A stretch of DNA of 64,000 nt from Xanthomarina maritima (GTDB lineage Bacteria; Bacteroidota; Bacteroidia; Flavobacteriales; Flavobacteriaceae). Shown here one piece after another: positions 1 through 21,988 of this stretch (its first letter is position 1; the number at the start of each line of letters is the position of its first letter). The notes below the pieces were generated by a model that was not told where the DNA came from, did no database searches, and saw only the letters and a program-made list of their open reading frames with translations. Made by a program: the position numbers and the translations under genes. The DNA lies in contig NZ_VSFC01000062.1 in NCBI RefSeq assembly GCF_008084905.1, forward strand, positions 62,001 through 126,000, in the 5' to 3' direction.

Positions 1-88
1 TAAGCACATTTAGAAAGATGGAAATTAGCAGGTTTCTATCTTTGACATCTTTATAAGAGTGCGTATGGTTGTGATGCGCATGACTCAT
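1..88 (-). CDS. Cation diffusion facilitator (CDF) transporter, N-terminal fragment
   Basis: The minus strand from 88 encodes MSHAHHNHTHSYKDVKDRNL followed by ISIFLNVL, and then runs off the window. The histidine-rich start, the short charged stretch and the beginning of a first membrane helix are what CzcD/ZitB-type zinc or cobalt efflux proteins show at their N-terminus. The start codon follows the rpiB stop with no gap (TAA then ATG), so the two are almost certainly co-transcribed and translationally coupled. Only 29 codons are visible, so the family call rests on this short segment, and the metal cannot be inferred. Confidence 0.7.
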   Translation of the reverse strand, partial: MSHAHHNHTHSYKDVKDRNLLISIFLNVL

Positions 89-523
89 TTAGCAAGAGAC
101 AGGTATTTTATGTACACGTTTTTCATGTCGTCCACCTTCAAAAGCAGTATCTAAAAATGTATCTACCATCTCAATAGCTTGTGGTAAAGCTGTAAAACGA
201 GCTGGAATACTCAATACATTAGCATTATTATGTTGTCTTGCAAGAGCAACAATTTCTTTAGTCCAGCATAAAGCAGAACGTACTCCTTGATGTTTATTAG
301 CTGTCATATTGGCTCCATTGCCACTACCACAAATAATTATACCAAAATCGGTATTATTGGTTTCTACATCTTGTGCCACAGGATGTACAAAATCTGGATA
401 ATCAACACTATCAGAAGCATCTGTTCCATAATTTTTAACCGTAATTCCTTTCGCTTCTAAATGCTTAATAATAGCAAATTTATATTCTGTTCCAGCGTGA
501 TCGTTACCTATAGAAATTTTCAT
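89..523 (-). CDS. rpiB: Ribose-5-phosphate isomerase B
   Basis: Interconverts ribose 5-phosphate and ribulose 5-phosphate in the non-oxidative pentose phosphate pathway, in the cytosol. The 144-residue length fits the RpiB/LacAB family. The N-terminal ISIGNDHAG segment and the IIICGSGNGANMTANK loop, with the family's reactive cysteine in CGSGNG, are intact, as is the HNNANVLSIPAR region. I start at the ATG at 523; a TTG directly upstream is an unlikely alternative. The leader carries a 7-bp hairpin (543-560). The downstream CDF gene starts right after the stop, giving a leftward two-gene unit diverging from the gene-free region. Confidence 0.96.
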   Translation of the reverse strand: MKISIGNDHAGTEYKFAIIKHLEAKGITVKNYGTDASDSVDYPDFVHPVAQDVETNNTDFGIIICGSGNGANMTANKHQGVRSALCWTKEIVALARQHNNANVLSIPARFTALPQAIEMVDTFLDTAFEGGRHEKRVHKIPVSC

Positions 524-542
524 CAATTAATATTTTAATTAG

Positions 543-560
543 TTTCCGTGAAGACGGAAA
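543..560 (-). promoter_or_regulatory. Stem-loop in the rpiB leader
   Basis: TTTCCGT (543-549) and ACGGAAA (554-560) are perfect inverted repeats with a 4-base loop, 20 bases upstream of the rpiB ATG. In the rpiB mRNA this would form a compact hairpin just before the ribosome entry region. No T-run follows on the minus strand, so it does not look like a terminator of leftward transcription. Confidence 0.35.
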
Positions 561-1081
561 TCTTGTGTTTTTATTACTGTAAAGGTACAAAATGTAGTTG
601 TATGGCTTATATTTTTTTATAGCTTTAGTAAGTTAAGAAATAACTAATGTTAATAGCTTAACAAAACAAATCTCATAACCTGTTAATAACTGTTTATAAT
701 TATTTAAAAGTAAAATATGGTTTATTTAATAATTTTTTCAAACAAAAATAGAGTCGACATCACCAAAATATAACTCAATATTTTTTGGATAAGTTTTCAG
801 CTATGAATTGTTGGTTATAAACATAAAATATTTAAAAATTTATGAGTCATTCACTTTAAAAATCACTTATTAACAACTACTAAAAAATGTTAATAGCATT
901 TAAGTTAAGTATGAAAATGAAGTATTTAAATATTTATCTATTGTTAATTACATATTAATAGAACGTAAACAAGATAACATCAAAATAAAAACTAAAAAAG
1001 TTATACCTGCTATTAACAACCCATTATAATCATTACTATTTTTTTTAAATTTTAAAAGAAAAAGATAATTATATATATAAA

Positions 1082-1090
1082 TGTGGATAA
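1082..1090 (-). other. Perfect DnaA box
   Basis: TGTGGATAA is the exact reverse complement of the DnaA consensus TTATCCACA. It lies 57 bases before the next gene and next to the run ATTATATATATAA. I saw no other exact 9-mer by eye in the intergenic regions. A single box can occur by chance, so its value comes from the surrounding repeats. Confidence 0.5.
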
Positions 1091-1146
1091 CTAATTCTTA
1101 TATAAAATTAATTTATATTTTTAACAGAGCCTAAATTTACTTACTT

Positions 1147-2616
1147 ATGAAACATACTTTACTTTTATTGCTATTTCCTTTTTTAATGTTTACTCAAACT
1201 CAAATTAGTCAAGATATTACTGGAGAATTTGCAGGAGATAATTTTGGATATGATACTACATTATCTTTAACTGGTAATAGATTAGCAGTAAGTGGAAAAT
1301 TTTACGATGGTATAAATGGTGAAGATTCAGGCTATGTTAAAGTTTATGAAATTATTAATAATAGTTTCATTCAAATAGGAAATGATATTGTTGGAGAAGG
1401 AGCAGGTGATAAATTTGGACATAAAGTTGTTTTATCTTCAAATGGAAATAGATTAGCTATAAGTGCTCCAAATAATTCTGGTGAAAATGGAGTTGGTTCT
1501 GGACATGTTAGAATTTATGAATTTATTAATAATAACTGGGTTCAAATTGGTCAAGATATTGATGGTGAAGTTGCTGGTGATCAATCTGGATATGGAATGG
1601 CTTTCTCCAAAAATGGTAATATTGTTTCAATTTGTTCTTATAGAAATAGTACAATTGTAAATGATGGTGGTCAAGTAAGGGTTTTCCAATTTAATGGTAC
1701 AAATTGGATACAATTAGGATCTTCTTTTTACGGTAATCAAAATAGTGATTATTTAGGTAGGTATATGGAGTTATCTTATAATGGTTTAATTATTGCATTT
1801 AGTTATAAACCTTTTAATTCACCTGGTTTTGTGAAAGTGTATGAATTTACAAATAATAATTGGGTACAAATAGGTAACGAATTAGCAGGAGATGCTTTTA
1901 ATGATAATTTTGGTATAAGTTTAGATTTATCAAACAATGGAAATATATTAGCTATTGGTGCTAATAAAAATGATAATAATGGAATTAATTCTGGTCAAGT
2001 TAAAATTTTTGAAAATAATAATAACAATTGGATTCAATTAGGTCAAAATATATATGGAGATGCAGAAGATGATTATTTTGGAGTTAGTTTAGATTTATCA
2101 GATAATGGAGAGATTTTAGCAGTAGGAGCAAGTCGTAATAATGGCTTAAATGGGACAAATTTTGATTCTGGACAAGTAAAAATTTTTAGAATAGTTAATG
2201 ATGTTTGGACTCAAATAGGTTCTAGTATTTATGGAGAATCTCAAGAAGATTATTTTGGATATTCTGTAAGTTTATCAGGAAATGCAAATATTCTAGCTAT
2301 TGGTGGTTTTAAAAATGATAATAATGGAAATGATTCTGGACATGTTCGTATATATAATCTTTCTAATTTATTAGCTTTAAATAATTTCGTTTTCTCTCAA
2401 TTTAGTTTATATCCAAATCCAGCCAAAAATCAAGTTAACATTCAATTACAAGAAAGTATAGAATTAAAACAAGTAAATATTTATAATACACTAGGTCAGT
2501 TTATTAGTACTTCAAAAGATAAGGTAATTAATACATCTCATTTATCACCAGGTATGTATTTAATAGAAATAGAAACCAATCAAAGTAAAACGACTAAACA
2601 ACTTGTTATTGAGTAA
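1147..2616 (+). CDS. Secreted seven-repeat beta-propeller-like protein with T9SS sorting domain
   Basis: A 489-residue exported protein of unknown function. Residues 1-18 form a hydrophobic signal peptide (MKHTLLLLLFPFLMFTQT). Residues about 20-407 hold seven repeats of roughly 55 residues. Each opens with a variant of D-I-x-G-x-x-x-D-x-F-G-Y, then has a variant of L-S-x-N-G-N-x-L-A-I-G and ends with S-G-x-V-x-I-[YF], then x-x-x-W-x-Q-I-G. Seven such units suggest a seven-bladed propeller of the FG-GAP or WD40-like class. Residues about 419-489 (FSLYPNPAKNQVNI to the end) match the type A sorting signal of T9SS cargo, so the protein is probably surface-anchored or released. It is Asn-rich and stands alone beside the putative origin. 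Ligand unknown. Confidence 0.8.
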   Translation: MKHTLLLLLFPFLMFTQTQISQDITGEFAGDNFGYDTTLSLTGNRLAVSGKFYDGINGEDSGYVKVYEIINNSFIQIGNDIVGEGAGDKFGHKVVLSSNGNRLAISAPNNSGENGVGSGHVRIYEFINNNWVQIGQDIDGEVAGDQSGYGMAFSKNGNIVSICSYRNSTIVNDGGQVRVFQFNGTNWIQLGSSFYGNQNSDYLGRYMELSYNGLIIAFSYKPFNSPGFVKVYEFTNNNWVQIGNELAGDAFNDNFGISLDLSNNGNILAIGANKNDNNGINSGQVKIFENNNNNWIQLGQNIYGDAEDDYFGVSLDLSDNGEILAVGASRNNGLNGTNFDSGQVKIFRIVNDVWTQIGSSIYGESQEDYFGYSVSLSGNANILAIGGFKNDNNGNDSGHVRIYNLSNLLALNNFVFSQFSLYPNPAKNQVNIQLQESIELKQVNIYNTLGQFISTSKDKVINTSHLSPGMYLIEIETNQSKTTKQLVIE

Positions 2617-2709
2617 TATTTTGTAATTCAGAAAGAAGCAATGAATCTCTTAATAAGTTTTATTATTTGTAATTTAACAGTTTAGAAACATCATTTAATA
2701 TTAAAACCG

Positions 2710-2717
2710 TAGCTTTG
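2710..2717 (+). promoter_or_regulatory. Candidate -7 promoter element for rnr
   Basis: TAGCTTTG matches the Bacteroidota -7 consensus TAnnTTTG. It would place the transcript start near 2724 and give rnr a leader of about 85 bases containing two stem-loops. No TTG lies at the usual -33 spacing, so the call rests on the -7 element alone. Confidence 0.4.
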
Positions 2718-2725
2718 TATTAAAT

Positions 2726-2787
2726 TTATAACCAGTACTTCACTTTTATTAGGTTATAAAACAACAGATTCCTATCTTTAATAGGAA
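2726..2787 (+). promoter_or_regulatory. Two stem-loops in the rnr leader
   Basis: TTATAACC (2726-2733) and GGTTATAA (2752-2759) form a perfect 8-bp stem with an 18-base loop. TTCCTAT (2769-2775) and ATAGGAA (2781-2787) form a perfect 7-bp stem with a 5-base loop. Both lie between the candidate promoter at 2710 and the rnr start. RNase R degrades structured RNA, so a structured leader on its own message could serve autoregulation. That role is inference only. Confidence 0.4.
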
Positions 2788-2810
2788 CAGAAAATGATTA
2801 CAATTATTAC

Positions 2811-5048
2811 ATGACAAAAAAGAAAAAAAGGAAACCTTCACATAACAAGATTTCCAACCTTACAAATACCATTCTAAGTATTTTAAAAAAAGATAGAAAC
2901 CAATCCTTTAACTATAAACAAATTGCTGCTAAAATAGGTGTTAATGATGCCAGTAGCAGAAATCAGATTATAAAAAAGCTTCAACAATTAAAAGCAAAAC
3001 AAGAGATTGAAGAAGTAGAACGAGGGAAATTTAAAGCCATTGTTAATACCGAATATCATACTGGAATTGTAGATATGGCTTCCAAAGGTTCTGGATATAT
3101 TATAAGCGAGGATTTTGACGAAGATATATACATTGCTTCAAATAACATGAACAAAGCGCTTCATGGAGATGAAGTAGAATTTTATACATACAAACGTTTA
3201 AAGCGTGGCAGACGTGAAGGTGAAATTACCAACATTATTAAACGTGCAAAAAGCGAATATGTTGGAGTTATTCAGTTTAGTAAAAATAATAATTTTGCTT
3301 TTGTAGTAGTAGATGGGAACAAAATGTACAAAGATATTTTTGTACCTAAAAATAAAATTAATAAAGCTGAAGATGGAGATAAAGTTCTTGTTTCTTTAGA
3401 AGATTGGCCAGAAAATTCCGATTCTCCAAATGGACGAATTTTAAAAGTTTTAGGAAAACCAGGAGAACACAATACAGAAATCCATGCTATTTTAGCAGAA
3501 TATGGCTTACCTGCAGTATTTCCTCATGAAGTAGAAGATTATGCTAATAAATTAGATACCTCTATTACAAAAGAAGAAATAGCGAAACGTCGCGATATGA
3601 GAGATGTGTTGACTTTTACTATAGATCCAAAAGATGCTAAAGATTTTGACGATGCCTTATCATTTCAAGTATTAGATAATGGCTTGTTTGAAATAGGAAT
3701 TCATATTGCAGATGTCTCTCATTATCTTCAACCAGATACAGTTTTGGATGATGAAGCTTACGAGCGTGCAACATCGGTTTATTTAGTAGATCGCGTGGTT
3801 CCAATGCTTCCAGAAGTCTTATCAAATAATGCGTGTTCTTTAAGACCACATGAAGAAAAATATACCTTTTCTGCAGTGTTTCAATTAAATGATAAAGCTG
3901 AAGTTAAAAACCAATGGTTTGGTAGAACCGTCACTTATAGTGATGCACGTTTTGCTTATGAAGAAGCTCAAGCTATTATAGAAAATAATACAAATGTCAT
4001 GTTGAGCTCTGTCGAAGCATCTCAATTGAATAACACAATACCAGCTGAAGTTTCCCTTACTGGAAAAGAATACATTACAACTCCAGAAATAGCTTTTGCC
4101 ACTTTAAAATTAGATGAATTAGCTAAAATCATGCGAAGAAAACGTATGAAATCTGGAGCGATTTCATTCGATAAAGTTGAAGTAAAATTCGATTTAGACG
4201 AACAATCAAATCCAATTGGTGTTTTCTTTAAAACCAGTAAAGATGCTAATAAATTAATTGAAGAATTTATGTTATTAGCTAATAGAAAAGTAGCCGAATT
4301 TATTGGTAAACAATCCCCTAAAAAAACTTTTGTTTATCGCGTTCACGACGAGCCAGACGATAGTAAATTAGCAGCTTTACAAAATGTAGTTGGTAGATTT
4401 GGTTATAAATTAAATTTTAAAGATAGAAAGAGTATTTCTTCATCTTTAAACAATTTATTAAAAGATGTTGAAGGTAAAAAAGAACAAAATTTGGTAGACA
4501 CTTTAACTATTAGAAGTATGAGTAAAGCCGAATATTCTACTCACAATATTGGTCATTATGGATTGGCTTTCGATTATTATAGTCATTTTACATCACCTAT
4601 TAGAAGATATCCAGATGTAATGGCACATCGTTTGTTGCAACATTATCTGGATGGAGGAAAATCGGCTAATGAAGACGTTTACGAAGATAAATGCAACCAT
4701 TCCAGTAATATGGAAAATCTAGCCACAAAAGCTGAAAGAGATTCTATAAAATACATGCAAATTAAATTTATGCAAGATCATAAAGATGAAAATTTTGTTG
4801 GCGTTATTTCAGGTGTTACAGATTGGGGAATTTATGTAGAAATAATAGCTAACAAATGCGAAGGCATGGTTAGTGTTCGGGATATGAAAGACGATCATTA
4901 TGTATTTGATGAAGATCATTTTGCTTTAATAGGAAAAAACTCTAAAACCATGTATCAATTAGGAGACGAAGTTATTGTAAAAGTAAAAGATACAGACTTA
5001 GTTAAAAAGCATTTAGATTTTACTTTAATTGGTAAGAACGAAGAATAA
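2811..5048 (+). CDS. rnr: Ribonuclease R, 3'-5' exoribonuclease
   Basis: Processive hydrolytic exoribonuclease that degrades structured RNA in the cytosol. The order is a basic lysine-rich start and winged-helix region (about 10-75), cold-shock/OB domains (about 85-225), the RNB catalytic domain (about 250-600) and a C-terminal S1 domain (about 660-742). The metal-binding aspartates of the RNB centre are in DPKDAKDFDDA (about 272-282), and HFTSPIRRYPD is also intact. The 745-residue length is normal for bacterial RNase R. Residues 392-406 look like an in-frame insertion between 9-bp near-direct repeats, described separately. The upstream leader has two hairpins. Confidence 0.96.
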   Translation: MTKKKKRKPSHNKISNLTNTILSILKKDRNQSFNYKQIAAKIGVNDASSRNQIIKKLQQLKAKQEIEEVERGKFKAIVNTEYHTGIVDMASKGSGYIISEDFDEDIYIASNNMNKALHGDEVEFYTYKRLKRGRREGEITNIIKRAKSEYVGVIQFSKNNNFAFVVVDGNKMYKDIFVPKNKINKAEDGDKVLVSLEDWPENSDSPNGRILKVLGKPGEHNTEIHAILAEYGLPAVFPHEVEDYANKLDTSITKEEIAKRRDMRDVLTFTIDPKDAKDFDDALSFQVLDNGLFEIGIHIADVSHYLQPDTVLDDEAYERATSVYLVDRVVPMLPEVLSNNACSLRPHEEKYTFSAVFQLNDKAEVKNQWFGRTVTYSDARFAYEEAQAIIENNTNVMLSSVEASQLNNTIPAEVSLTGKEYITTPEIAFATLKLDELAKIMRRKRMKSGAISFDKVEVKFDLDEQSNPIGVFFKTSKDANKLIEEFMLLANRKVAEFIGKQSPKKTFVYRVHDEPDDSKLAALQNVVGRFGYKLNFKDRKSISSSLNNLLKDVEGKKEQNLVDTLTIRSMSKAEYSTHNIGHYGLAFDYYSHFTSPIRRYPDVMAHRLLQHYLDGGKSANEDVYEDKCNHSSNMENLATKAERDSIKYMQIKFMQDHKDENFVGVISGVTDWGIYVEIIANKCEGMVSVRDMKDDHYVFDEDHFALIGKNSKTMYQLGDEVIVKVKDTDLVKKHLDFTLIGKNEE
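3984..4037 (+). repeat. In-frame relic of a dispersed repeat inside rnr
   Basis: AATAATACA (3984-3992) and AATAACACA (4029-4037) are 9-bp direct repeats with one mismatch, 45 bases apart. Between them lie 36 bases containing GTCATGTTGAGCTCTGTCGA and then AGCATCT, which resembles a short element scattered through many Bacteroidota genomes. The arrangement looks like a small insertion with a target-site duplication. It adds exactly 15 codons (NNTNVMLSSVEASQL) to RNase R without breaking the frame. The similarity to the dispersed element is from memory and not checked. Confidence 0.5.
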
Positions 5049-5076
5049 ATAGTAACTTTATAAAAAATTAATCCAT

Positions 5077-5751
5077 ATGAAAAATATAGCAACAATAGCA
5101 TTTATATTAGTAACTACTGTATTATTTGCACAAAGTCCAAACACAACAACTGTTGGAAAATTTAAAGAACTTAAAGTTTACGATTTAATAGATGTTAATT
5201 TAGTACAATCAAACGAAGATAAAATTATTATATCTGGTAAAAACACTGATAAAGTAGTCTTTGTAAATAAAAATGGTGTATTAAAACTAAAAATGAAAAT
5301 TGATGAAATTTATAATGGAGATGATACTACCGTAACAGTACATTATACAGGAGTTGATATCATTGATGTTAACGAAGGTGCATCAGTTTCTTCAAGTGAT
5401 ACCATTAAGCAATTCGAAATAGATTTAAATGCTCAAGAAGGAGGAACTATTCAGGTCAGTTTAGATGTATCATATACTAATGTTAAATCTATTACTGGAG
5501 GAAATATTAAAGCGTCAGGGATTTCAAAAAATCAAGATATTTCTATAAATACTGGAGGTATTTTCGATGGAAGAGAATTAAAAACAGAAACTACAGATGT
5601 TACGATAAAAGCAGCAGGTGAAGCAACAGTTCATGCAAGTGGTTTAGTTAAGGCTAAAGTTACAGCAGGAGGTAATGTGTATATATATGGAAATCCAAAA
5701 TCTGTAGATGAAAGTAAGGTTATGGGAGGAAATATTAAACGCATGGATTAA
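5077..5751 (+). CDS. GIN-domain (DUF2807) exported protein
   Basis: A 224-residue exported protein. Residues 1-18 are a signal peptide ending in VLFAQ. The rest is a repetitive beta-helix-like fold of the putative auto-transporter adhesin head GIN family (PF10988), common in Bacteroidota. Typical segments are GKFKELKVYDLIDVNLVQ near the N-terminus and VKAKVTAGGNVYIYGNPKSV near the C-terminus, followed by a second glycine-rich GGN turn. No lipobox is seen, so it is probably periplasmic or outer-membrane associated. It follows rnr by 28 bases and may share its transcript. Molecular role unknown. Confidence 0.8.
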   Translation: MKNIATIAFILVTTVLFAQSPNTTTVGKFKELKVYDLIDVNLVQSNEDKIIISGKNTDKVVFVNKNGVLKLKMKIDEIYNGDDTTVTVHYTGVDIIDVNEGASVSSSDTIKQFEIDLNAQEGGTIQVSLDVSYTNVKSITGGNIKASGISKNQDISINTGGIFDGRELKTETTDVTIKAAGEATVHASGLVKAKVTAGGNVYIYGNPKSVDESKVMGGNIKRMD

Positions 5752-5766
5752 TCCACAAAGATTCCT

Positions 5767-5774
5767 TAAATTTG
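5767..5774 (+). promoter_or_regulatory. Candidate -7 promoter element for the LysE-family gene
   Basis: TAAATTTG matches TAnnTTTG, with a G right after the T-run. It ends 12 bases before the first ATG of the exporter gene, which implies a very short leader. It also argues against the TTG at 5772, which overlaps this element, as a start codon. Confidence 0.4.
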
Positions 5775-5786
5775 TGTAAACATTTC

Positions 5787-6473
5787 ATGTTTATGCAAGA
5801 TGCTATTCTTACAGCCATTCCTTTTGGTATTCTTTTATCGTTCACTATTGGACCAGTATTTTTTGTCCTTTTAGAAACAAGCGCAACAAAAGGTTTGAAA
5901 AGTGCTTTAATATTCGATTTTGGAGTTATTCTAGCTGATATATTCTTTATAGTAGTTGCTTTTTATAGTACCACTAAGCTATTAGATAAAATAAAAGATG
6001 ATCCAAATTTCCTTATTTTTGGTGGAGTTCTTTTAGCTGTTTATGGATTTATTTCTTTTATTAAAACATCAAAATCTTTTCGTGATATTGTTAGAGAATA
6101 CCATACTGTTGAAATAAAAAAGAAGTTTGGAAAACTTTTTATTAAAGGTTTTCTATTAAATTTTATAAACGTTGGTGTTCTTTTAGGTTGGTTAGGATTT
6201 ATTGTTATAGGAAATTCGTTAACAGAAACAAATAGAGAACTTTGGGTGTTTTTAGCAACTATTTTAATAGTTTATTTTTTAGTAGATTTATTAAAAATTG
6301 TTGCTGCAAAAACATTAAAAAGCAAATTAACTCCTAGACGAATTTTTAAAACAAAGAAAATTGTTTCATTGGTTATTTTAGGATTTGGAGTTTTATTATT
6401 AGTTCAAGGTTTTTTTCCAAAAGAAAAAGAACTTATCAAAGATAAATTAGAACAAATTAGCCCATTAAAATAA
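5787..6473 (+). CDS. LysE/RhtB-family amino-acid exporter
   Basis: An inner-membrane exporter of about 228 residues with six predicted membrane segments. The family N-terminus is clear: an amphipathic start, then FGILLSFTIGPVFFVLLETS with the conserved G-P pair in helix 1. A cytoplasmic loop (about 90-115) precedes the later helices. LysE-type proteins export amino acids such as lysine, arginine or threonine; the substrate cannot be told here. I take the ATG at 5787; the ATG at 5793 is equally possible. A longer reading from TTG at 5772 would overlap the candidate promoter element. Confidence 0.85.
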   Translation: MFMQDAILTAIPFGILLSFTIGPVFFVLLETSATKGLKSALIFDFGVILADIFFIVVAFYSTTKLLDKIKDDPNFLIFGGVLLAVYGFISFIKTSKSFRDIVREYHTVEIKKKFGKLFIKGFLLNFINVGVLLGWLGFIVIGNSLTETNRELWVFLATILIVYFLVDLLKIVAAKTLKSKLTPRRIFKTKKIVSLVILGFGVLLLVQGFFPKEKELIKDKLEQISPLK

Positions 6474-19998: not shown

Positions 19999-20014
19999 TG
20001 TTTCACGTGGAACA
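19999..20014. other. parS site upstream of mnmG
   Basis: TGTTTCACGTGGAACA differs at one position from the canonical ParB-binding sequence TGTTTCACGTGAAACA and is palindromic except for that base pair. It is intergenic. An identical copy lies on the other side of mnmG. ParB loads at such sites, which usually cluster near oriC. Confidence 0.85.
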
Positions 20015-20082: not shown

Positions 20083-21954
20083 ATGTTTCAAACAGAATAT
20101 GACGTTATAGTAGTTGGAGGAGGTCATGCTGGAAGTGAAGCTGCTGCTGCTGCTGCAAATATGGGAAGCAAAACATTGCTTGTTACCATGAATTTACAAA
20201 ATATTGCACAAATGTCTTGTAATCCTGCTATGGGAGGAATTGCTAAAGGACAAATTGTACGCGAGATTGATGCTTTAGGTGGTTACAGTGGAATTGTTAG
20301 TGATACATCAGCTATTCAGTTTAAGATGTTAAATAAATCTAAAGGCCCTGCCATGTGGAGCCCTAGAGTTCAAAGCGACAGAATGAAGTTTGCTGAAGAT
20401 TGGAGAATGATGTTAGAAAAAACACCTAATTTAGATTTTTATCAAGAAATGGTGTCTGGGCTTATTGTTGAAAACAACAAAGTAAAAGGAGTTAAGACAT
20501 CTCTAGGATTAGAAATTAAAGGAAAGTCTGTTGTGTTAACAAATGGGACTTTTTTAAACGGCTTAATTCATATTGGAGATAAAAATTTTGGAGGAGGAAG
20601 AGCAGGAGAAAAAGCAGCAACAGGAATTACAGAACAGTTAGTGGGTTTTGGTTTTGAATCTGGAAGAATGAAGACAGGAACTCCTCCAAGAGTGGATGGT
20701 AGATCGTTAGATTTCTCTAAAATGATTGAACAACCAGGAGATGAAAACCCAGAAAAGTTTTCATATTTAGATATTACAAAACCTCTTGTAGTACAACGTT
20801 CTTGTTTTATGACTTATACAAGCCCAGAAGTTCACGATTTACTTCGAGAAGGATTTGATAGATCTCCAATGTTTAATGGAAGAATTAAAAGTTTAGGACC
20901 AAGATATTGTCCATCGATTGAAGATAAGATTAATCGTTTTGCAGATAAAGATAGGCATCAATTATTTGTTGAGCCAGAAGGATGGAATACAGTTGAAATG
21001 TATATTAATGGATTCTCAACTTCGCTGCCAGAAGATGTACAATTTAAGGCATTAAGTTCTGTTGCAGGATTTGAAAACGTGAAATTTTTTCGCCCTGGTT
21101 ATGCTATAGAATATGATTATTTTCCACCTACTCAACTGCAACATACATTAGAAACTAAGTTAATCGATGGTTTATATTTTGCAGGACAAATTAATGGAAC
21201 TACAGGTTATGAAGAAGCAGCATCTCAAGGATTAATGGCTGGAATAAATGCTTCTTTAAAAGTACAAGAAAGAGAACCGTTTATTTTAAATAGAAGCGAA
21301 GCTTATATAGGTGTTTTAATTGACGATTTAATTACAAAAGGCACAGAAGAGCCTTATAGAATGTTTACTTCTCGTGCAGAGTATAGAACTTTATTACGAC
21401 AAGATAATGCAGATTTCAGATTAACACCAAAATCATATGAATTAGGTTTGGCATCTGAAAAAAGATTAAAACGCATGGAAGAAAAGCAAAATAAAGCTGA
21501 TGCTTTTGTCCAATTTTTTGCTGATACAAGTGTTAAACATGATGAGATAAACCCTATATTAGAAGATAAAGAATCTTCTTTAATGAAACAATCTGATAAG
21601 ATGTTTAAAATATTTTCAAGACCAAATATCACAATTGATGATATGAGAAAAGTAGCATCCGTTGAATCATATATTCAAGATAACAATCTAGACACCGAAG
21701 TGATTGAACAGGCAGAAATTCAAATTAAATATTCGGGTTATATTGAAAAGGAAAAGAATAATGCGGATAAATTAAATAGATTAGAAAATATTAAAATCCC
21801 TAAAAATTTTGACTATTCAAAACTTAAATCTATGAGCTTAGAAGCAAGAGAAAAGTTGAATAAAATTCAACCAGTAACAATTTCTCAAGCGTCAAGAATT
21901 AGTGGTGTTTCACCAAGTGATGTTTCTGTACTTTTGGTTTACATGGGTAGGTAA
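20083..21954 (+). CDS. mnmG: tRNA uridine-5-carboxymethylaminomethyl modification enzyme MnmG (GidA)
   Basis: FAD-dependent enzyme that, with MnmE, modifies U34 of several tRNAs. It is 623 residues from the ATG at 20083; a TTG start at 20065 would add only six residues. The FAD-binding motif VVGGGHAGSEAA lies at about 10-21. The family segments MSCNPAMGGIAKGQIVREIDALGG and GRMKTGTPPRVD are present, as is the C-terminal region with ISGVSPSDVSVLLVYMGR that contacts MnmE and tRNA. Identical parS sites flank the gene. mnmG often lies near the origin in bacteria. Confidence 0.97.
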   Translation: MFQTEYDVIVVGGGHAGSEAAAAAANMGSKTLLVTMNLQNIAQMSCNPAMGGIAKGQIVREIDALGGYSGIVSDTSAIQFKMLNKSKGPAMWSPRVQSDRMKFAEDWRMMLEKTPNLDFYQEMVSGLIVENNKVKGVKTSLGLEIKGKSVVLTNGTFLNGLIHIGDKNFGGGRAGEKAATGITEQLVGFGFESGRMKTGTPPRVDGRSLDFSKMIEQPGDENPEKFSYLDITKPLVVQRSCFMTYTSPEVHDLLREGFDRSPMFNGRIKSLGPRYCPSIEDKINRFADKDRHQLFVEPEGWNTVEMYINGFSTSLPEDVQFKALSSVAGFENVKFFRPGYAIEYDYFPPTQLQHTLETKLIDGLYFAGQINGTTGYEEAASQGLMAGINASLKVQEREPFILNRSEAYIGVLIDDLITKGTEEPYRMFTSRAEYRTLLRQDNADFRLTPKSYELGLASEKRLKRMEEKQNKADAFVQFFADTSVKHDEINPILEDKESSLMKQSDKMFKIFSRPNITIDDMRKVASVESYIQDNNLDTEVIEQAEIQIKYSGYIEKEKNNADKLNRLENIKIPKNFDYSKLKSMSLEAREKLNKIQPVTISQASRISGVSPSDVSVLLVYMGR

Positions 21955-21972: not shown

Positions 21973-21988
21973 TGTTTCACGTGGAACA
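21973..21988. other. parS site downstream of mnmG
   Basis: TGTTTCACGTGGAACA, identical to the copy at 19999 and one base from the canonical parS palindrome. It ends two bases before the ATG at 21991 of the methyltransferase gene, so ParB binding here could also affect transcription or start choice. Confidence 0.85.

Follow-up and report, generated by a model that had tools for sequence, protein, structure and literature searches.

The closest described counterpart of the locus analysed here is the basal unwinding system (BUS) at the oriC of Bacillus subtilis, in which, according to passages of the published account, DnaA sitting on co-directed boxes is handed onto one strand (PMC10721633). 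There the G and the A of the triplet 3'-GAT-5' enter a pocket between neighbouring protomers, the G facing Arg202 and Glu228 and the A facing Asn187, and a T at the middle position of the triplets is harmful (PMC10721633). Published descriptions of the spacer between boxes and triplets are GGCC or a GC-rich 5-mer, and they have DnaA loaded onto the complement of 5'-CTA-3' (PMC8235120, PMC10316083); in the systems described so far, the strand that receives DnaA lies across from the one that carries the boxes (PMC8235120). The published trio search requires no more of a sequence than a run of at least three NAN triplets, and the BUS authors consider that deviant trios probably exist (PMC8287927); DnaA homologues might also recognise other sequences (PMC10721633). 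At the oriC of Thermotoga maritima and Helicobacter pylori, triplet repeats likewise lie beside DnaA boxes and an A+T-rich unwinding element, and the (extended-)trios are described as mainly TAG or TAA, 5' to 3' on the loading strand (PMC10316083, PMC8235120).

Origins have also been assigned by Ori-Finder in Elizabethkingia (PMC8994065), and oriC plasmids of Cytophaga hutchinsonii were reported (Xu et al. 2012, as cited in PMC5891637). Excerpts of two further reports give Ori-Finder 2022 calls that fall in the same chromosomal neighbourhood as our locus, in Mariniflexile litorale (PMC11278836) and Algorimicrobium (PMC12843772), but they name mnmG or its vicinity as oriC; in the former dnaA, as here, does not fit the skew. 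In PMC11278836 the text has mnmG as oriC and leuB as ter, with the labels swapped in the map legend. Among the open-access PubMed Central papers listed by our searches we recognised none on an oriC between rpiB and rnr or on a trio variant in Bacteroidota.

The window, that is the whole stretch of 64,000 bases analysed, corresponds to C27:62001-126000 in an assembly of 62 contigs and 3.04 Mb. Its features relevant here are as follows.

92-523, minus strand: rpiB, ribose 5-phosphate isomerase B (Pfam LacAB_rpiB, E 2.2e-55), left neighbour of the proposed origin
527-1146, no strand: proposed oriC interval, conserved and non-coding, 19.5% G+C, upstream of rpiB
648-656, minus strand: putative divergent DnaA box CTATTAACA, contains TGTTAATA
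681-689, minus strand: putative divergent DnaA box TTATTAACA, contains TGTTAATA
691-699, minus strand: putative divergent DnaA box TTATAAACA
784-792: 8-of-9 DnaA box match TTTGGATAA
815-823, plus strand: putative divergent DnaA box TTATAAACA
867-875, plus strand: putative divergent DnaA box TTATTAACA, contains TGTTAATA
888-896, minus strand: putative divergent DnaA box CTATTAACA, contains TGTTAATA
953-1091 (C27:62953-63091), plus strand: core matched by profile R1, its sole match in this genome
1001-1009, plus strand: weak upstream box TTATACCTG, adjoining and co-directed with the anchor box
1010-1018, plus strand: anchor box CTATTAACA, pointing at the A+T-rich stretch
1019-1022, plus strand: 4-base spacer of sequence ACCC
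1023-1037, plus strand: five triplets ATT ATA ATC ATT ACT (opposite strand 3'-TAA TAT TAG TAA TGA-5'), period-three A conserved
1038-1081, no strand: A+T-rich stretch, proposed DNA unwinding element, judged by sequence only
1082-1090, minus strand: exact DnaA box, TGTGGATAA on the plus strand, equal to the consensus TTATCCACA, pointing back into the A+T-rich stretch
1147-2616: open reading frame for a 489-aa secreted protein that has FG-GAP repeats and a sorting tail for type IX secretion, between the proposed origin and rnr
2811: rnr, after the secreted-protein frame
19999-20014 and 21973-21988: two identical parS-like palindromes TGTTCCACGTGAAACA, flanking mnmG (20098-21948)

An earlier note on this DNA had read the interval as oriC. 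We regard that reading as very probably correct, in view of the repeats conserved in relatives and the agreement with GC skew in most genomes. The interval brings together a strand-composition switch, a cluster of DnaA boxes and an A+T-rich element beside the boxes; it is conserved, is enriched in boxes, keeps the order and spacing of its parts, and is close to single copy per chromosome. The surroundings are largely as the note had them. The 620 A+T-rich bases contain no gene, no frame of at least 60 aa in the window's list of open reading frames overlapping 527-1146; the palindromes stand about 19-21 kb away; and genes to the right mostly point right, with 45 of the 54 frames of at least 120 aa on the plus strand. 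Its statement that genes to the left point left holds for rpiB, but further left orientations are mixed over about 40-62 kb of the contig. A known RNA gene was considered and rejected: an Rfam search of window positions 1-6000 gave no match above gathering, and two chance-level matches lie outside the interval.

Some smaller observations concern the edges of the interval. Beside rpiB, positions 543-560 hold an exact 18-base hairpin-like repeat, TTTCCGTGAAGACGGAAA, and a 22-base exact match overlapping this repeat occurs on contig C21 of the same genome. Among genomes of the same genus, three (G001, G002, G003) have an rnr-like start directly after the interval and no secreted-protein start there, and two (G004, G005) have a similar secreted-protein start after the interval.

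The DnaA boxes reported earlier, one exact and one matching at 8 of 9 bases, are both in place. So are the five exact copies of TGTTAATA on both strands, at 648, 681, 868 (minus), 888 and 1011 (minus), with near copies such as TGTTAATT at 942. The note's rough estimate of fewer than one expected copy is upheld by Markov sequences derived from the region, which hold 0.24 copies on average and never five (0 of 5000); some G- or C-containing 8-mer reaches five copies in 45 of 5000. Over the whole window TGTTAATA occurs 14 times against 9.4 expected, a count reached by 11 of 100 shuffles and hence no clear enrichment; the noteworthy point is its clustering, not its window-wide abundance. When (C/T)TATNAACA and TTATNCACA are counted together per 600-base window, the interval has eight and no other place in 146 kb of the contig has more than two, the cluster being mostly of the divergent form with one consensus box. 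The densest box window falls at the core in seven of the eight genomes scanned and ties with another place in the eighth (G154).

The same words stand out among relatives. In a set of one interval sequence per genus (22 genera, 11,774 bases), TGTTAATA is the top-ranked 8-mer, with 51 copies against 3.9 expected and presence in 20 of the 22 genera, so that its conservation between rpiB and rnr, which the earlier note had put forward as a check, is borne out. Other patterns are enriched in this set as well, TTATNAACA (51 versus 4.0 expected), TTATNCACA (12 versus 1.2) and the consensus box TTATCCACA (7 versus 0.1), while three permuted control patterns stay at expectation; the remaining control, TTATGNACA, reaches 7 versus 1.1 and is itself part of the TTATNNACA series. 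Because of these enrichments TGTTAATA can be placed in a TTATNNACA series to which the classical DnaA box belongs as well, and its reading as a divergent DnaA box, (C/T)TATNAACA, is supported. The note's suggestion of a degenerate DnaA box thus stands, as a putative assignment, on the series and on placement, but it finds no echo at ten dnaA loci, where TGTTAATA is not enriched (0-1 copies per locus).

The part of the interval that is most conserved, and that the earlier note missed, is an opening module at 1001-1090. Among 28 aligned relatives, T49, T50 and T52 of the weak upstream box are invariant (28/28), TGTnnATAA of the far-side consensus box is largely kept, and box-like words recur at a kept spacing across the intervals. 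Strands are named below by the conventions used for B. subtilis. In 69 family loci, A stands at offsets 4, 7, 10, 13 and 16 after the anchor box in 100, 99, 94, 86 and 94%, so that the first triplet base on the presumed loading strand is T, not G, at these same frequencies; T is found at offsets 5 and 8 in 100% and at offsets 11, 14 and 17 in 28, 59 and 74%. Among 23 loci of other families, some of which seem to have a spacer one base longer, A occupies the same five offsets in 57-74%. Runs of period-three A exceed those in shuffles of the same bases (4.77 versus 1.82 in the family, 4.00 versus 1.92 in the others), a pattern favoured in these 69 and 23 loci by the use of models containing the module to locate and anchor them; A71, T72, A74 and T75 are invariant in the 28 loci obtained via rpiB alone. 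In three genomes of one genus (G275, G240, G367) the triplets are (CAA)n and therefore place no adenine on the loading strand. At 30 dnaA loci from other classes of the phylum, a box with at most one mismatch is followed by a period-three run of five in seven cases, of T in three and of A in four, as raw counts. The surroundings of the A+T-rich stretch give, by eye, an impression of inverted repeats.

Set beside the BUS as described in parts of PMC8287927, PMC10721633, PMC6669920 and PMC8235120, the module has the same layout of co-directed boxes, a short spacer (4 bases here, GGCC there), triplets and then A+T-rich DNA. It differs in the first loading-strand triplet base, T here and G there; in its boxes, mostly (C/T)TATNAACA, with an anchor box three mismatches from TTATCCACA; in the consensus box that faces inward from the far side; and in that dnaA is not adjacent. 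As to the BUS requirement of a box with at most two mismatches to TTATCCACA, or a species-specific box, within 16 bases of the triplets, the distance here is 4 and our CTATTAACA has three mismatches, and some relatives carry TTATTAACA as anchor box, with two. The consensus triplet 3'-GAT-5' with its G held by Arg202 and Glu228 does not describe the situation here, where the first triplet base is mostly T in the 69 loci and both residues are missing from all 32 DnaA proteins of the class that were read. The architecture being BUS-like and the consensus triplet and guanine contacts absent, we consider the module a variant of the BUS that probably acts in a BUS-like way. From the trios of T. maritima and H. 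pylori it differs in that the conserved triplet base is a T at the 3' end on the loading strand.

The spread of the element was followed from rpiB outward. Searching 60 relatives with RpiB gave 56 matches, of which the best 30 loci, our own included, were taken; 28 were aligned, G022 being omitted for a contig end and G009 for an interrupted interval, and rpiB adjoins the core in the aligned relatives too. A sequence-only profile without structure (R1; 140 positions, the last 140 bases of the interval; cutoff E<=1e-3) found the core of G009 about 2.7 kb away. R1 has a match in 132 of 149 family genomes, and in nearly all of them a single one; five genomes have two matches, which in four overlap on the other strand and in G060 include one elsewhere. 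No match at this cutoff was obtained in 17 of the 149, seven of which have a completeness of 90% or more and a contamination of 5% or less. Across the class, R1 finds a match in 20 of 198 genomes. Other families account for 14 of the 20; in nine of those the match shares a contig with mnmG, always within 20 kb, in four the two are on separate contigs, and for one the place of mnmG is not listed. An exact pattern scan of species genomes returned at least 117 stretches, and among the matches listed 78 of 80 titles are of Bacteroidota. Two metagenome bins titled Tenericutes and deltaproteobacterium (L272, L303) carry a Bacteroidota-type pattern; mis-binned contigs are possible.

A shorter model without structure (R2), trained also on the other-family hits of R1, matches 92 of 198 genomes at E<=0.05, many of these matches being probably due to chance. 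The loci near mnmG were chosen by eye and do not represent a full count; G180 and G267 were dropped for want of a match, and G214 is doubtful. Reverse-strand R2 matches overlap the main match in L110, L160, L103, L251, L116, L237 and others, which would look like a weak module in mirror orientation at the far-side box. In G324 six identical weak R2 matches, two of which sit at bases 44-88, are spread over five contigs and look like a repeated element near contig ends.

From these parts we infer the following course of DnaA binding, strand choice, opening and initiation at the interval. DnaA would bind the array of divergent boxes (C/T)TATNAACA between 648 and 1018 together with the consensus TTATCCACA at 1082-1090, and would be loaded from the tandem pair at 1001-1018 across the 4-base spacer onto the triplets at 1023-1037. 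The strand loaded would be the one opposite the box strand, and DnaA would then pull open the A+T-rich stretch at 1038-1081, leading to helicase loading. As to how the triplets are read, we tentatively propose, at slightly less than even odds, that Bacteroidia use a differently coded DnaA-trio, with T-first triplets read via an altered, mostly hydrophobic pocket that replaces the Arg/Glu guanine clamp and would present Ile or Val at B. subtilis position 202 and mostly Val at 228.

The residues at this proposed pocket differ from those of B. subtilis in the class proteins read. Arg202 and Glu228 (B. subtilis numbering) are each found in 0 of 32 DnaAs of the Bacteroidia, for 26 of which an alignment supplied the residues, while those of the other six were taken by eye from motifs. 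Of these 32 proteins, 28 have Ile or Val at position 202 and 26 have Val, Ala or Ile at position 228. Both Arg and Glu are present in the B. subtilis, T. maritima and A. aeolicus chains. The loss of the guanine clamp fits the loss of the triplet guanine, in a register that presumes the same strand and a 4-base spacer; this agreement of DNA and protein does not amount to a statistical test, since each change represents about one event on the tree. At the place of E. coli T435, Ala is found in 22 of the 26 aligned class proteins; PMC5043019 lists position 435 among those that may play a part in the altered reading of boxes by Epsilonproteobacteria. Two observations speak against the pocket reading: the loss of Arg202 extends to the other classes of the phylum (30 of 30), which have Ser there, while that of Glu228 is complete only inside the class (Glu228 is present in 17 of 30 outside it, with G187 unreadable), and the (CAA)n triplets would carry the middle T that is harmful in B. 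subtilis (PMC10721633, in part).

It is also quite possible, if somewhat doubtful, that this oriC uses ordinary DnaA-trios read by their middle adenine, the T at the first position being incidental. Triplets 1 and 2 keep a middle A on the presumed loading strand in all 69 family loci, our window has four such triplets in a row, and the published pattern needs nothing beyond three or more NAN (PMC8287927). Yet the runs of period-three T that a middle-adenine trio predicts rise only a little above shuffles (2.65 versus 1.92 in the family, 2.13 versus 1.82 in the others) and reach three or more in 20 of 69 and 8 of 23 loci, whereas first-position T runs lie far above shuffles, and 66 of the 69 and 18 of the 23 loci have one of at least three; the three genomes with (CAA)n, moreover, have no middle adenine to be read.

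Improbable, in our estimation, is a version in which DnaA at this oriC binds the box strand, where adenine recurs with a period of three, or recognises T-rich motifs of the E. coli kind, for example TTGT. The conserved period-three adenines do sit on the box strand, and (CAA)n is TTGTTG on the other strand, akin to the E. coli motifs TTGT and TTATT (passages of PMC8235120 and PMC10316083), but known systems load the opposite strand, as noted above, and (CAA)n was seen in no more than three genomes, all of one genus.

The position of the origin itself was approached through GC skew, whose minimum the earlier note had expected here. In contiguous stretches of 60-146 kb, the best change point lies -3 (G038, core position set at 300 bases upstream of rpiB), +23 (G069), +328 (G021), -559 (G090) and -1027 (G154) bases from the core; it is further off in G150 (6.6 kb) and in our own genome, G000 (13.5 kb), with the core still within 2 log units, as it is in seven of nine genomes. 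The change point disagrees with the core in G088 (16.5 kb) and G028 (31.6 kb), a discrepancy that recent inversions in the vicinity of the origin might explain. Of the nine genomes, two (G038, G150) have their cumulative minimum no more than 1 kb from the core and the other seven have it 10-43 kb off; our genome has its local minimum at C27:49587, which is 13.4 kb leftward of the locus, and there the 2-log-unit support of the change point takes in the locus. Repeat conservation and skew, both put forward as checks in the earlier note, together favour the interval, the cumulative minimum being the weaker part. In G021, a single contig of 3.93 Mb, six sampled stretches below 0.9 Mb have negative skew, seven from 0.90 to 2.6 Mb positive skew and two from 3.0 Mb on negative skew, which puts the switch at rpiB (0.911 Mb) and away from dnaA (base 25). 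Ten further complete genomes all have higher skew to the right than to the left at 40 kb, one by only 0.006; over quarter-genome stretches this is true of nine of the ten, with raw signs fitting in 30 of 40. Third codon positions give a less sharp picture, in which the best point lies 6 kb (G021), 8 kb (G038), 11 kb (G053), 32 kb (G049), 52 kb (G028) and 55 kb (G000) from rpiB.

A dnaA-linked origin was rejected, as dnaA is on another contig in our genome and 0.91 Mb from the switch in G021. The gene mnmG lies 16-28 kb from the element in seven genomes, and 36 kb (G049) and 3 kb (G053) from rpiB. An origin about 19 kb to the right, at mnmG, with the interval as a regulatory or segregation site, is very improbable and was likewise rejected: Ori-Finder 2022 did name mnmG or its neighbourhood in the two Flavobacteriaceae genomes cited above (PMC11278836, PMC12843772, both in part), parS-like palindromes flank the gene, and in G028 it does slightly better on skew than the core (-3.4 versus -4.3 log units), but it fits worse than the core by change point in six of seven genomes and worse than rpiB by third codon position in six of six, and 146 kb of our contig, mnmG included, hold no second dense box window.

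With oriC placed at the interval between rpiB and rnr, the element is an origin landmark recognisable by sequence in most family genomes examined, usable in drafts where whole-genome skew fails, and it speaks against an origin at dnaA or mnmG. As both the repeat and the protein pocket differ from those of B. subtilis, the proposed T-first code is testable by altering either. If true, the single-stranded half of the origin code would have been recoded across the class, and this would accompany a double-stranded box that is recoded too, TTATNAACA, and an altered residue in contact with the box, Ala at E. coli position 435.
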